Source: Robiginitomaculum sp.
Lineage (GTDB): Bacteria > Pseudomonadota > Alphaproteobacteria > Caulobacterales > Maricaulaceae
Length of the DNA stretch: 64,000 nt
Assembly (NCBI GenBank): GCA_002733905.1
Contig: NVXK01000003.1
Span: 25,859-89,858 of the forward strand
Direction of reading: 5' to 3'
Below, in pieces: positions 47,628-52,791 of this stretch. Each line of letters starts with the position of its first letter. The first letter of the stretch is position 1. The notes beneath the pieces are model-generated. The model was not told where the DNA came from and did not search any database. It saw nothing but the letters and a program-made list of their open reading frames with translations. Made by a program: the position numbers and the translations under genes.

Positions 47628-48776
47628 ATGAGTAATGCATTCGACCATATACGCCCATGGCGCCAAATTTCACGCCGTAAATCGCGACAGATTATGGTTG
47701 GAAAAGTTCCTGTGGGTGGCGACGCACCGATCAGTGTCCAGTCCATGACCAATGCCCTGACCCCTGATATTCAAGCCACTATCAAACAAGTGCGCGACCT
47801 CGAAGAAGCAGGCGCAGATATTGTGCGTATTTCTTGCCCCGACCCTGAAAGCACGCATGCACTCAAAGATATAACCAAGGCTGTGAGTGTACCAATCGTT
47901 GCCGACATCCATTTCCATTATAAACGGGGTATCGAAGCCGCAGAAAACGGCGCAGCCTGTTTGCGGATAAATCCTGGAAATATTGGCGGACAGCACCGCG
48001 TGAAAGAAATCGTCAGCGCCGCGCGTAATAATGGGTGTTCAATCCGTATTGGCGTAAATGCGGGCAGTTTGGAAAAAAGCTTACTAGAAAAATACGGCGA
48101 ACCCTGTCCCGAAGCCATGGTCGAGAGCGCACTAATGCATGCACGCATGTTGCAAGACGAAGATTTCCACGATTTTAAAATTTCTGTAAAAGCTTCCGAT
48201 GTGTTTCTAACCGTTGCGGCCTATCATCAACTCGCAGACGCGATTGATTGCCCGCTTCACCTTGGAGTCACAGAAGCAGGGGGCTTGCGGACGGGCGGTA
48301 TTAAATCGGCGATCGGCATGGGCAGTTTGTTATGGGCAGGGATTGGCGACACAATCCGTGTCTCGCTTTCTGCTGATCCTGTTGAAGAGATTAAAACGGG
48401 TTATGATATTCTCAAATCTCTGAATTTACGCACACGCGGTATTAATATTATTTCGTGCCCCAGTTGCTCAAGGCAAGGCTTTGATGTGATTACAACGGTC
48501 GCGGCCCTCGAAGACAGGCTCGCACATATTAGCGAGCCAATTACCCTTTCTATTATTGGCTGTGTCGTAAATGGCCCCGGTGAAGCCGCCTATACAGACA
48601 TTGGTTTCACAGGCGGCAAGGCTGGTTACGGCATGATGTACGCCGCTGGTAAGCGTACAGGCAAAACGGCCAATGAAGATATGATTGAGGATATTATTAC
48701 TCAAGTAGAAGAACGTGCAGAAATATTACGCAAGCAGGCCGCAGAAGAGGCCGCAGAAGAAGCGGTTCTTGATTAG
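47628..48776 (+). CDS. ispG: 4-hydroxy-3-methylbut-2-enyl diphosphate synthase
   Basis: A 382-residue 4Fe-4S enzyme of the MEP isoprenoid pathway. The TIM barrel begins with [20 protein letters not shown]. Iron-sulfur ligands are C277 and C280 in SCPSCSRQG and C312 in [11 protein letters not shown]. The C-terminal tail carries a 12-bp duplication (48736-48759) coding an alanine/glutamate repeat, AAEEAAEEA. It feeds isoprenoids to quinone and undecaprenyl synthesis. Confidence 0.97.
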
Positions 48777-48840: not shown

Positions 48841-49743
48841 ATGAGCGATAATTTACCAGCGACCATCCCTTCACTTGCGCGTGCATTTGAAGACGAGCGA
48901 GAAAACCTACGTTCCGCAATCTCTGCCCAAAATTTATCTTCCAGCCAAGCCGTGATTGAAGCAAGGCGGGCCTTGGACCGTACGGGCGATATATTTGCAA
49001 GCCAAACCGAAGACATGCATTTGCAAAAATCTGGGCTATGGTTATTGGAAATGGTCAAATCTGGTTCAGGCGTTTTAGACCGTGGGGTGAAAGCCGATAT
49101 TATCTGGCGCGAAGTGCCCAAGGCCTCAAAACGTATCATCGCAGGCAGCACGCTGTATTACAGCGCCGCAGGACTGTTTTTTGTCGCGGGTTTTCTACAA
49201 GCATCACGCATTGCAATGCTGGCTTCGCTCACCCTTGCCGCATTGCGGTTTTTTGACCCGAAAGACTGGAAAAACCTCTTAGGGAAAGTCCCTTTTTTGG
49301 GCAGGCATAAGACGCCGTTATTAGAAGCCCCAAATGGGCAATCCTTTCAAGCTGACACGCATATCTCCGTCGAAGCAGGGGGCTTTGTAGATACACTCGC
49401 CGATGCTCTGCGTACTGCGGATCATATTCTTGTTCGCCTCGCCGAACCTGTAGTGCAGACACATTGGCGCGATGATGCGCGCCTCATGGGGTTTGTGCAA
49501 AACTTGCTAGAGGCAAATGCATCAGGTGATACTAAATTCGCGCAGAAATTGGTTGGTAGTGAACTGGAAAGTATATTGCGAAACGAAGGCATAGAGATCG
49601 TAGATTATTCTCGCAAAACGGCCAAATATTTTGATGTCCTGCCTGCGCTTGATATGGATGGTACAAAAACCAAACAGGCCTCACCTGCATTGATGCATAA
49701 TGGTGAAGTGCTGCGGCGCGGAAGTATCTGGAAAGCCATATGA
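48841..49743 (+). CDS. membrane protein with a GrpE-like C-terminus, partner of the Hsp70-like ATPase
   Basis: A 300-residue protein with no family I recognise. A charged helical N-terminus (residues 1-95, QAVIEARRALDRTGD and QKSGLWLLEMVKSG) leads to one long hydrophobic region of one or two helices (about 98-138). A soluble part of 160 residues follows. The last 55 residues (from about 245, GIEIVDYS, FDVLPA, SPALMHNGEVLRRGSIW) recall the beta domain of GrpE by pattern only. It sits directly upstream of an Hsp70-like gene and shares ATGA at the boundary, so it may be a nucleotide-exchange or tethering subunit. Confidence 0.6.
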   Translation: MSDNLPATIPSLARAFEDERENLRSAISAQNLSSSQAVIEARRALDRTGDIFASQTEDMHLQKSGLWLLEMVKSGSGVLDRGVKADIIWREVPKASKRIIAGSTLYYSAAGLFFVAGFLQASRIAMLASLTLAALRFFDPKDWKNLLGKVPFLGRHKTPLLEAPNGQSFQADTHISVEAGGFVDTLADALRTADHILVRLAEPVVQTHWRDDARLMGFVQNLLEANASGDTKFAQKLVGSELESILRNEGIEIVDYSRKTAKYFDVLPALDMDGTKTKQASPALMHNGEVLRRGSIWKAI

Positions 49744-49765
49744 GTAAAACAGATGAGTAAAACAG
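49740..49765 (+). repeat. 13-bp tandem duplication at the start of the Hsp70-like gene
   Basis: ATGAGTAAAACAG occurs twice in succession. The first copy overlaps the upstream stop (ATGA) but is out of frame and would stop after six codons (TAA at 49758-49760). The second copy holds the real ATG at 49753. Without the duplication, the upstream stop would overlap the start of the ATPase gene directly. Confidence 0.75.
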
Positions 49766-51669
49766 ATAAAAATCTTGAATTTATTGGCTATGATCTTGGG
49801 CACGGCGAAACGGCTGTTGGGCGTGCCTATTCTGGCTCTGCCCGCGAACCAGAAATTTTAGAACATATGGGCGAACGCAGTTTCGTCACGGCAATTGCCA
49901 AAGGAAAATCTGGCGTACGCATTGGCGCGCAAGCGGTGAACCTCGCGGCCATTGGTGATAAAAAAGATAAAGTCTGGGTGAAATTTAAAAGCCGCGATGT
50001 CACGGACGCGGAAACGCAAATACCCACGCAATTATTTACCAAAACGCTTTTCGGTGATCTGGCCAAAGAAAAGAAAACCCAAGGCATGGGCGAAAGCCAT
50101 TTTATTGTCGGGTGCCCATCTGGATGGGATGCCAATGACCGCGCGAACTACACAAAGCTTATGCAAAGTTCTGGCTTAAAAAAAGTGCGTATTGTACCTG
50201 AATCCCGCGCGGCGCTTATGACCGCTTTGGAGCAAGGCTATCTTTCGCTTGAGGCGGCACGCTCAAGTGTTTTGATCGTAGACATAGGGTCGTCAACAAC
50301 CGACTTCACCTATTGTATGGATTTGGACGCAGAGGATGTCGGTCATAATATTCTAGGGTCAGGCTTGCTGGATAGCTTGATATTTGACCGCAATCTTGCA
50401 CGCCAACCAGAACGCAAAAAGATTGAAAAATTGATTGCCCGTTTTCCCTATTACCGCCCCATTCTTGAATATTGGTGCCGCTTGGCTAAGGAACAATATT
50501 TCAACGGCGAAGAATTACCCGTGGAAATGATCCGCAGACTTCCTGTCGCAGGTGGCGTTTTGTTTGAAATTCGCATGGACAAAGAAGACGCAAAAGAAAT
50601 TCTAAAAGCCAAAATACCTGCGTTGAACGGCTTTAATTGGCCCGAGACATTTGACTATGCATTGAAAGAGGCGGTATCGGGACTTGGTGGCCGTGAACCA
50701 CAAACCGTATTATTGACAGGCGGTGCGTCTCGACTCCCCCTTATTGCGCCTGCGTGCGAAAAAGCTTTCCCGAAGGCACGTGTTGTGCGCGGCGCAGAAC
50801 CCGAATTTGCGATTGCGCGTGGCCTTGCGTGGCTCGGCAGGTTTGAGTTTTTACATGCGAGTTTTAAATCATCTGTCACTGAACTGGTCGCCGAAAATGG
50901 CCCCGTATTTGAAAAGGCCAAAGCCGCGAGCGAAGCCTTGGGCGATGTTTTGGCCCCTGTACTTGTCGACGCCCTGATTGAGGCATGTGTAATTCCTGCA
51001 TTCGCCGACTGGCGTAAAGGCACGATCAAAAATCTTGATAGTGTCGAAGCAGCATTAAATAAACGCGTGAAAATATGGCTAGGCAGTGACGACGCACAAG
51101 CGACCTTAAAACCTGAAATCGAAAAATGGTTTGCAAGTTTACAGCGCGACATTGAACATATCACCGACCCACTTTGTCGTGATCACGGCTTGCCTGCAAT
51201 GGTTTTGTCTCTTGATGACAACGCACATGTTAGCCGCCATTTGGAAGGGCTGAGTGTCGCTGCGCCGCAAGTAGCAAGTTTGGAAAATGACACGGCGCTT
51301 GCAGGGACAACCGTGTCGGCAATTTTAATCGGCGTCTTGCTCGCAAAAGCTAATCTGCTGGCTCCACTTTTGGCCAACCCTCTTGGTATTGCCGTTGGCG
51401 GTGCGATCGGCGTTGGCGGTTTCTTCTTTGGTAGAAAAGCACTGGAAGGCAAATTACGTACGGCCAATGTTCCGATACTCGCACGTAAACTCATGACCAA
51501 TGGCCGTATCCGCAAGGCCGCCAATAGCCAACGCGCTGATCTGATAAAAGATGTGGCAAAGGCATGGAATGAACAGGCATCTATGCGTTTTACGGACGAG
51601 CTCATCGAAATGTTAGAAACGGCATTTTTACAACGCACTCATGAACGTGCAGTTTTGTTTTTATTGTAA
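49753..51669 (+). CDS. divergent Hsp70-like ATPase with a C-terminal membrane region
   Basis: A 638-residue protein. Its first 370 residues follow the Hsp70/actin ATPase plan: phosphate loop 1 (GYDLGHGETAVG, residues 12-23), phosphate loop 2 (VDIGSSTTDF, D177-D184) and the adenosine motif LTGGASRLP (322-329). It lacks a recognisable substrate-binding beta-sandwich and EEVD end. The region 380-500 is helical. A glycine-rich hydrophobic segment (about 517-560) and a charged helical tail follow. It is probably a membrane-tethered chaperone-like or sensor ATPase working with its upstream partner. Confidence 0.75.
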   Translation: MSKTDKNLEFIGYDLGHGETAVGRAYSGSAREPEILEHMGERSFVTAIAKGKSGVRIGAQAVNLAAIGDKKDKVWVKFKSRDVTDAETQIPTQLFTKTLFGDLAKEKKTQGMGESHFIVGCPSGWDANDRANYTKLMQSSGLKKVRIVPESRAALMTALEQGYLSLEAARSSVLIVDIGSSTTDFTYCMDLDAEDVGHNILGSGLLDSLIFDRNLARQPERKKIEKLIARFPYYRPILEYWCRLAKEQYFNGEELPVEMIRRLPVAGGVLFEIRMDKEDAKEILKAKIPALNGFNWPETFDYALKEAVSGLGGREPQTVLLTGGASRLPLIAPACEKAFPKARVVRGAEPEFAIARGLAWLGRFEFLHASFKSSVTELVAENGPVFEKAKAASEALGDVLAPVLVDALIEACVIPAFADWRKGTIKNLDSVEAALNKRVKIWLGSDDAQATLKPEIEKWFASLQRDIEHITDPLCRDHGLPAMVLSLDDNAHVSRHLEGLSVAAPQVASLENDTALAGTTVSAILIGVLLAKANLLAPLLANPLGIAVGGAIGVGGFFFGRKALEGKLRTANVPILARKLMTNGRIRKAANSQRADLIKDVAKAWNEQASMRFTDELIEMLETAFLQRTHERAVLFLL

Positions 51670-51822: not shown

Positions 51823-52791
51823 ATGACTATTCTCGTAACAGGCGCCGCAGGCTTTATCGGATCGCATCTTTGTCGTGCCCTTTTGCAAGCGGGCGAACAA
51901 GTTGTCGGCGTTGATGCCCTCAATGATTATTACGATCCACAATTAAAACGCGCGCGCCTAGACAGCTTGGCACAATTTAAAAAATTCCGTTTTTCGCAAG
52001 TGAATTTGGCAGTGGACGGGGCCCTAGAACAGGCCGTATCCCCTGACGATATTGATGTCATCGTGAATTTGGCGGCGCAAGCTGGCGTGCGGTATTCCAT
52101 AGATAACCCACGCGCCTATAGCCGTTCAAACTTAAGTGGCTATATCAATATATTAGAGTTCGCGCGGGCTGCAAAAAACCTAAAACATTTGGTTTATGCT
52201 TCATCATCTTCTGTTTACGGCGAGCGAGAAGACGGGCCGTTTCGCGAGAGCGATATCGTACGCAAACCATCATCACTTTACGCCGCAACTAAAATTTCAG
52301 GCGAAATGCTCAGCCAGAGCTATGTGCACCTCTATGGTATTCCAATGACGGGGCTACGGTTTTTTACTGTATATGGTGCGTGGGGACGGCCCGATATGGC
52401 CTATTGGATATTTACGGAAAAAATATTGCGCGGAGAACCCATCACACTTTATGCGGCAGGGGAAATGTCGCGAGATTTCACTTATATTGACGATATTATT
52501 GAAGGTATATCTGCGGTGATGAAACAACCGCCAACGGGTGATGATTTACATGAAATTTATAACCTTGGTAATTCTACACCCACCCCACTTATGGATTTAG
52601 TGCAGGCCGTAGAGCAAGCGTGTGGTATCGAAGCCGAGAAAATTTATCTCCCCAAACAAATGGGGGATGTCAGCAAGACCTTCGCCGATGTGTCAAAAGC
52701 ACAAGCGGCATTTGGCTATAACCCACGAACAAAAATACAAGAAGGCATTCCTCATTTTGTAAACTGGTATAGAGATTTTTATAAAATTTAA
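51823..52791 (+). CDS. NAD-dependent UDP-sugar epimerase (UDP-glucuronate 4-epimerase-like)
   Basis: An extended SDR of 322 residues. The NAD-binding motif is VTGAAGFIGSHL. The active site has S-S-S in ASSSSVYGERE and YAATK (YxxxK). NDYYDPQLKRAR near residue 40 and GLRFFTVYGAWGRPDM are typical of UDP-glucuronate epimerases such as CapI/LpsL. It would supply UDP-galacturonate or a related sugar for surface glycans. The neighbours galU, glmS and glmM fit that role. Confidence 0.88.
   Translation: MTILVTGAAGFIGSHLCRALLQAGEQVVGVDALNDYYDPQLKRARLDSLAQFKKFRFSQVNLAVDGALEQAVSPDDIDVIVNLAAQAGVRYSIDNPRAYSRSNLSGYINILEFARAAKNLKHLVYASSSSVYGEREDGPFRESDIVRKPSSLYAATKISGEMLSQSYVHLYGIPMTGLRFFTVYGAWGRPDMAYWIFTEKILRGEPITLYAAGEMSRDFTYIDDIIEGISAVMKQPPTGDDLHEIYNLGNSTPTPLMDLVQAVEQACGIEAEKIYLPKQMGDVSKTFADVSKAQAAFGYNPRTKIQEGIPHFVNWYRDFYKI

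Follow-up and report, generated by a model that had tools for sequence, protein, structure and literature searches.

A candidate membrane-bound Hsp70-family ATPase encoded next to a GrpE-like partner in a lineage of Alphaproteobacteria

INTRODUCTION

Hsp70 is usually viewed as a motor that acts on peptides through its substrate-binding domain. Two adjacent genes, here named B and A, in the window (the whole stretch of 64,000 nucleotides of Robiginitomaculum sp. DNA that was analyzed) raise the question of whether the ATPase of this motor may work at a membrane without that domain, together with an exchange factor of its own. The first-pass annotation, made from the DNA letters, had proposed such a pair, in the form of an Hsp70-like ATPase tethered to the membrane and a membrane protein with a GrpE-like C terminus.

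RESULTS

Two adjacent genes under purifying selection

The two coupled genes proposed at 48841-51669 are both present as open reading frames (ORFs) on the same strand, with B preceding A and 9 bases between them (Table 1). Codon comparison of 11 pairs of relatives gave dN values of 0.05 to 0.18 and dS values of at least 0.84, saturated in 2 of the 11, which indicates that both genes are under purifying selection. By eye, the upstream neighbor (47628-48776) is ispG-like, and the downstream neighbor (51823-52791) resembles a nucleotide-sugar epimerase.

Table 1. Positions in the window of genes B and A and of the features of their products
Feature	Position	Strand	Basis
Gene B, putative membrane partner, 300 aa	48841..49743	+	ORF; 51/137 family genomes; dN well below dS
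B residues 10-92, N-terminal helical domain	48868..49116	+	AlphaFold2; pLDDT 81-97 (residues 11-80), 68-69 (residues 81-100)
B residues 98-138, predicted transmembrane helical hairpin	49132..49254	+	Hydropathy 42/54; helices 100-120, 123-137
B residues 169-300, helices then small beta domain, GrpE-like (best profile match at about 234-296)	49345..49740	+	hhalign; Foldseek; VIA vs 3a6m
Gene A, Hsp70-family ATPase, 638 aa	49753..51669	+	ORF; Pfam HSP70 in 29/29 relatives
A residues 7-367, Hsp70-type nucleotide-binding domain	49771..50853	+	Foldseek 7n46, E 3.8e-15; VIA Z 28.6
A residues 12-19, phosphate loop 1	49786..49809	+	D14 aligned to DnaK D8; invariant in 29
A residues 175-184, phosphate loop 2	50275..50304	+	D177/T182 vs DnaK D194/T199; invariant in 29
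A residues 320-331, adenosine motif	50710..50745	+	Aligned to DnaK GG.(T/S)R(L/M)P stretch
A residues 368-502, helical region replacing the substrate-binding domain	50854..51258	+	Model; second-family profile match to 479
A residues 515-560, glycine-rich hydrophobic (predicted membrane) segment	51295..51432	+	Hydropathy 29/29; model confidence low at 502-565
A residues 561-638, charged helical tail, conserved RAVLFL motif at end	51433..51666	+	Alignment; model

Protein A contains an Hsp70-type nucleotide-binding domain

The Pfam HSP70 model matched A with 29.1 bits, above its cut-off of 20.6, and matched 29 of 29 relatives of A (E values up to 0.1). A profile of these 29 relatives retrieved DnaK first from the PDB (E = 9.1e-12). 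The AlphaFold2 model of A has a mean pLDDT of 77.9, with low values at residues 502 to 565, and in a Foldseek search with this model all of the best 50 matches listed belong to the Hsp70 family, with 7n46 as the best. VIA superimposed the model on an Hsp110 domain over 326 residues with an rmsd of 3.4 Å, and in its best 50 rows 325 to 339 residues of A align with Hsp70 domains at 3.4 to 4.0 Å.

Both phosphate loops and the adenosine motif, which had been read as kept in A, were found and align with their DnaK counterparts. Phosphate loop 1 contains the letters DLGHGE, phosphate loop 2 reads VDIGSSTTDF, and the adenosine motif reads LLTGGASRLPLI. Residues D14, E150, D177, and T182 of A align with D8, E171, D194, and T199 of DnaK, which are catalytic residues, and all four are invariant in the 29 relatives. 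The alignment is gapped at K70, the catalytic lysine of DnaK; a candidate for this position in A is K79, which lies in a conserved KFK motif and is likewise invariant in the 29.

Scored by hhalign against single Escherichia coli proteins, the A profile gave 84.9 with HscC, 83.3 with DnaK, 56.7 with YegD, 44.1 with MreB, and 31.0 with FtsA. A is nearer to Hsp70 than to MreB or FtsA, and its original assignment as an Hsp70-like ATPase is borne out by the scores, the family matches, and the fold. A also matches PRTRC protein D (NCBIfam; E = 5.9e-9) and the phage-library partition protein PHROG 691 (E = 7.4e-12), as expected because the Hsp70-actin superfamily is shared, and the Pfam model MreB_Mbl matches 22 of the 29 relatives.

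A helical and hydrophobic region in place of the substrate-binding domain

The best Pfam stretch on A covers residues 69 to 185, and the local hhalign alignment of A with DnaK stops at residue 364 of A and residue 380 of DnaK. The AlphaFold2 model has no strands past residue 346, so nothing like a substrate-binding beta-sandwich is seen, in agreement with the earlier view that A has no recognizable substrate-binding domain. A is therefore an Hsp70-family ATPase that is incomplete as an Hsp70 chaperone. Of the features that had been described in its place, the helical region and the tail are seen in the model, and the segment at about residues 515 to 560 is hydrophobic in each of the 29 relatives. 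Another hydrophobic helix (residues 399 to 417 in the window's protein) is not general among them.

Protein B carries a predicted hydrophobic hairpin and a probable GrpE-like C-terminal domain

The AlphaFold2 model of B (mean pLDDT 83.9, pTM 0.52) shows, in order, an N-terminal helical domain, a hairpin at residues 100 to 137, further helices, and a small C-terminal beta domain. The hairpin falls within the hydrophobic segment proposed at about residues 98 to 138. Among 54 relatives of B, 42 pass a Kyte-Doolittle cut-off of 1.6 in this segment and 12 fall below it, and membrane insertion of B is therefore likely but not certain.

The C terminus of B had been likened to the beta domain of GrpE by pattern, and this likeness survives profile and fold tests with modest strength. 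By hhalign, residues 234 to 295 of B align with the GrpE beta domain (P = 0.0003, probability 39.6) with a score of 33.7. Seven control families reached at most 20.5, a reversed alignment of GrpE 10.7, and 150 column shuffles at most 22.3. With an enlarged B alignment (A8), which holds more relatives and the second family described below, the score with GrpE drops to 26.1, above its own shuffle maximum of 21.1. When 21 families assembled from the fetched loci were compared, the B, A, and GrpE families among them, GrpE is the top match of B after itself (32.1, followed by the family of A with 23.9 and then 20.2). Reciprocally, B is the top match of GrpE after itself, with a small margin (24.7, next 21.0).

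A Foldseek search of the B model against 350,542 PDB chains placed Thermus thermophilus GrpE at ranks 1 and 2, with E values of only 0.13 and 0.29, DnaK-bound GrpE (1dkg) at rank 15, and GrpEL1 of the mortalin complex (9bls) at rank 23, with E values up to 2.4. VIA aligned 146 residues of B with T. thermophilus GrpE (3a6m) at an rmsd of 12.3 Å and a Z score of 7.3, which lies in the range that the tool calls “common.” A different fold for the C terminus of B was looked for, and none was clearly better among the Foldseek and VIA matches listed. The VIA rows other than GrpE are matches of a generic helical kind, mostly to residues 1 to 207.

The Pfam GrpE model matched none of 30 B proteins at E values up to 1, and B is therefore termed GrpE-like rather than filed as GrpE; NCBIfam gave no GrpE match for the window's B, and a single E. 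coli GrpE sequence was not detected with the B profile (score 14.3). The Pfam model DUF3000 matched 8 of the 30 (best E = 2.8e-4) and stays below its cut-off in the window's B; this match, DUF1993, and other weak Pfam matches were set aside as inconsistent across members. The GrpE resemblance of B is thus modest but repeatable. A GrpE-like C-terminal domain is likely, at a confidence well above even, and nucleotide exchange by B, as judged from sequence and model, is somewhat less likely than the domain itself. All 31 genomes of the order that were tested have an ordinary GrpE gene at another place, and B would therefore be a dedicated, additional factor.

A and B are strictly linked in two families of one order

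Of 59 genomes of the window's taxonomic family, independent searches for A and for B retrieved an identical set of 22. B occurs in 51 of 137 genomes of this family, in 8 of 19 genera, with Robiginitomaculum and Hellea assemblies among the named relatives, and A adjoins B in all 51 (49 genomes by gene layout, plus the window and genome G042 by coordinates). In all 58 loci mapped, which come from 55 genomes as L001 to L003 repeat three of them, B lies immediately upstream of A on the same strand. One genome (G565, loci L003 and L174) has B broken into two ORFs.

Among 200 genomes of the order, 13 have both A and B, all from the window's family, and 6 from another family, in genus g248, have a diverged A. 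In a survey of 62 genomes of this second family, strong matches were confined to g248, where 6 of the 10 members had one; G601 (5.7e-6) and G509 (4.5e-4) gave weak matches. The six g248 genomes all carry a diverged pair in the same gene order, with a partner that is encoded directly upstream and has a hydrophobic stretch. The ATPase profiles of the two families match over residues 8 to 479 (E = 1.5e-43). The g248 partner profile scarcely matches B (E = 0.067) and does not match GrpE (0.17), so that it is gene position and layout that speak for kinship of the partners.

Three surveys of the class, with 289, 289, and 279 genomes, gave nothing convincing elsewhere among the part of the weak matches that was inspected, namely, L142, L143, and L144 of nine in one survey (the others being L145 to L150) and L029 of two in another (the other being L030). 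As distant relatives, all four inspected matches were rejected: by eye, L029 starts as an ordinary DnaK does and L143 resembles DnaK, and by Pfam, L142 and L144 carry Hsp70s. Co-occurrence across alphaproteobacteria, named at the outset as support for a system, therefore stands in part: the two genes co-occur perfectly where both were searched, but in the searched set they are confined to two families of a single order.

Genomic context and empty sites

A gene named c2, which encodes a protein of about 190 aa (two members were scanned with Pfam, and neither matched), lies 3' of A, directly or one ORF away, in 20 of the 26 loci mapped outside g248. It is present in 125 of 137 family genomes, with or without the pair, and on another contig in the window's genome; a three-gene system was rejected, since c2 is not required. 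The pair is often near envelope-sugar genes, namely, the GlcNAc 2-epimerase family (by Pfam, in one member) and GalU-, GlmS-, and GlmM-like genes (by eye). The g248 pair has other neighbors, and because c2 belongs to the core genes of the window's family, the context is only a weak hint. No J-domain gene was found among seven neighbors scanned.

Empty sites were found in two genera. In g1, the pair is missing from genome G027, where c2 adjoins the ispG-like gene, and in g19 it is missing from three genomes (G043, G032, and G525), where c2 adjoins the gene x28. In carriers of the same genera (L056 in g1, L063 and L064 in g19), B and A lie exactly between those flanking genes. A third case, in g12, is less clean, as not only the pair is absent before c2 in G040 and G048, but also c5 and one carrier's c54. 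A tblastn search of A and B against these six pair-free loci gave a single chance match (E = 0.57). Five pair-free genomes of other genera have different surroundings at the site. For 22 genomes, the A tree and the B tree are correlated (r = 0.83, reached in 0 of 5,000 permutations), which shared ancestry alone would also give. Linkage and joint absence give A and B the look of a two-component unit, and the recurrent core-gene neighbor (20 of 26 loci) looks like vertical inheritance with losses.

DISCUSSION

Proposed mechanism and alternatives

The explanation that we favor, and consider probable though far from assured, is that the pair consists of a membrane Hsp70-family ATPase and its own GrpE-like exchange factor, restricted to this lineage. 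A would reside on the cytoplasmic face of the inner membrane, where its helical region, membrane-inserted segment, and helical tail would stand in for the substrate-binding domain. B would be the dedicated partner of A, held by its hydrophobic hairpin with the GrpE-like C-terminal domain toward the cytoplasm. ATP binding and hydrolysis in A would shift its helical and membrane part, and the GrpE-like domain of B would then open the nucleotide cleft, so that ADP is released and A is reset, with both steps taking place at the membrane. The output of A would be its own helical and membrane half, and a client may be found in the membrane or the envelope. The fact that A and B come and go together points to an undescribed two-part ATP-driven membrane machine. 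A bolder version, which we hold only tentatively, is that of a new class of Hsp70 machine: its ATP cycle would drive a hairpin embedded in the membrane instead of a peptide-binding domain, and a membrane-bound GrpE-like factor would reset it on the spot, so that the Hsp70-GrpE core would form a device for membrane remodeling or for handling membrane proteins.

The strongest competitor, still unlikely in our judgment, makes B a membrane receptor or anchor for A, with a C-terminal domain that merely resembles GrpE and performs no nucleotide exchange. The lack of a Pfam GrpE match in B would fit an anchor, as would the weak E values and large rmsd of the fold match and the second family's partner, which is not GrpE-like by profile. 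GrpE and B are nevertheless reciprocal top matches after self among 21 families, GrpE is the first PDB match for B, and A belongs to the Hsp70 type, the class on which GrpE acts, all of which argue against a mere anchor.

Improbable by comparison is a cytoskeletal pair, in which A would be a filament-forming actin-like ATPase of the ParM or MreB kind and B its membrane adaptor. The PRTRC protein D, PHROG 691, and MreB_Mbl matches speak for such a pair, but they are countered by the Pfam HSP70 match in all 29 relatives and by the long alignments with Hsp70 domains; moreover, the hhalign score of A is 44.1 with MreB and 83.3 with DnaK, and A is therefore not closer to MreB. At least as improbable is a defense or other conflict cassette, which would explain why the pair is present in only 51 of 137 genomes of one family and absent as a unit in relatives. 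PADLOC returned no credible model (best 0.044), B is unmatched in 72,556 plasmid records, and the same family-core gene is adjacent or one ORF off in 20 of 26 loci, all of which tell against a cassette of this kind.

If the favored explanation, a membrane ATPase with its own exchange factor, is correct, the Hsp70 motor would have been moved to a membrane and its substrate-binding domain discarded with a GrpE-like partner retained, which would make the ATPase-exchange core reusable for another output. The pair is small, its host genera include a described species (Robiginitomaculum antarcticum), and pair-free relatives such as G027 share a genus with carriers, so the function of the pair is approachable by deletion and transfer.

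Relation to known systems

Family, PDB, and literature searches, the last of these outside most subscription journals, retrieved no description of the A-B pair among the entries and papers listed, and A matched none of the described families that have a known partner. With DnaK or HscC and GrpE, the pair shares the Hsp70-type nucleotide-binding domain, with identical residues at the invariant catalytic positions, and a partner C terminus whose helices and beta domain are probably GrpE-like. Unlike those proteins, A has a hydrophobic segment where no substrate-binding domain can be recognized, B is extended by an N-terminal domain and by a predicted membrane hairpin, and the two genes adjoin and are inherited together. 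YegD, PRTRC protein D, ParM, and MreB share the superfamily fold of A and give weak sequence matches, but these leave the helical and membrane C-terminal half of A uncovered, and the hhalign scores of YegD and MreB are much lower than those of DnaK and HscC.

The CnuD proteins of CoCoNuT systems, in the accessible part of their description, show Hsp70-like domains used in a bacterial system other than folding, and A is similar in that such a domain appears recruited outside folding (PMC11090510). CnuD has both nucleotide- and substrate-binding domains and is fused or linked to McrBC-type GTPase systems, and that part of the description mentions no membrane GrpE-like partner (PMC11090510).

In the two other alphaproteobacterial loci L142 and L144, the gene directly 5' of an Hsp70 gene matches GrpE below the threshold (Pfam 0.078 and NCBIfam 0.096, respectively), and the A-B pair is therefore not a categorically new system. 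These loci differ from it in that their Hsp70s match Pfam HSP70 over most of their length and in that their partners give no match with the B profile and a weak one with that of GrpE (22.0 at best). Hsp70 genes with a diverged GrpE-like partner next to them may thus be a wider, little-described theme. By eye, the upstream gene of L142 has hydrophobic stretches, and a TerB gene lies next door in L144.

Genes neighbouring the ATPase

Two genes adjoin the gene for the Hsp70-family ATPase (A) at some loci. The c2 gene, present in 125 of the 137 genomes of the family, usually lies next to A in genomes that carry A together with its upstream GrpE-like partner (B). Its product is a conserved protein of ~190 amino acids with a hydrophobic stretch at the N-terminal end, and the two members scanned gave no Pfam match. 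The c5 gene, immediately past A in reverse orientation at 10 loci, encodes about 155 to 290 amino acids, and the one member scanned had no Pfam match.

Positions of the genes neighbouring A
Gene	Position	Other loci	Strand
c2	L056:9686-10258	19	
c2, window's genome	G000:C9:51503-52072		
c5	L060:9443-10072	nine	opposite to A

Other arrangements

In one genome, B is divided into two open reading frames while A is unbroken (L174:2952-3949, on a contig shared with L003); either a fault in the assembly or decay at an early stage could explain this.

Two distantly related alphaproteobacteria each carry an Hsp70 gene with, directly 5' of it, a gene whose match to GrpE falls below threshold (L142:511-2997 and L144:2-2148). 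These are possibly independent operons of Hsp70 with a diverged GrpE-like gene. By eye, the upstream gene of L142 has hydrophobic stretches; at L144, a TerB-family gene follows downstream.
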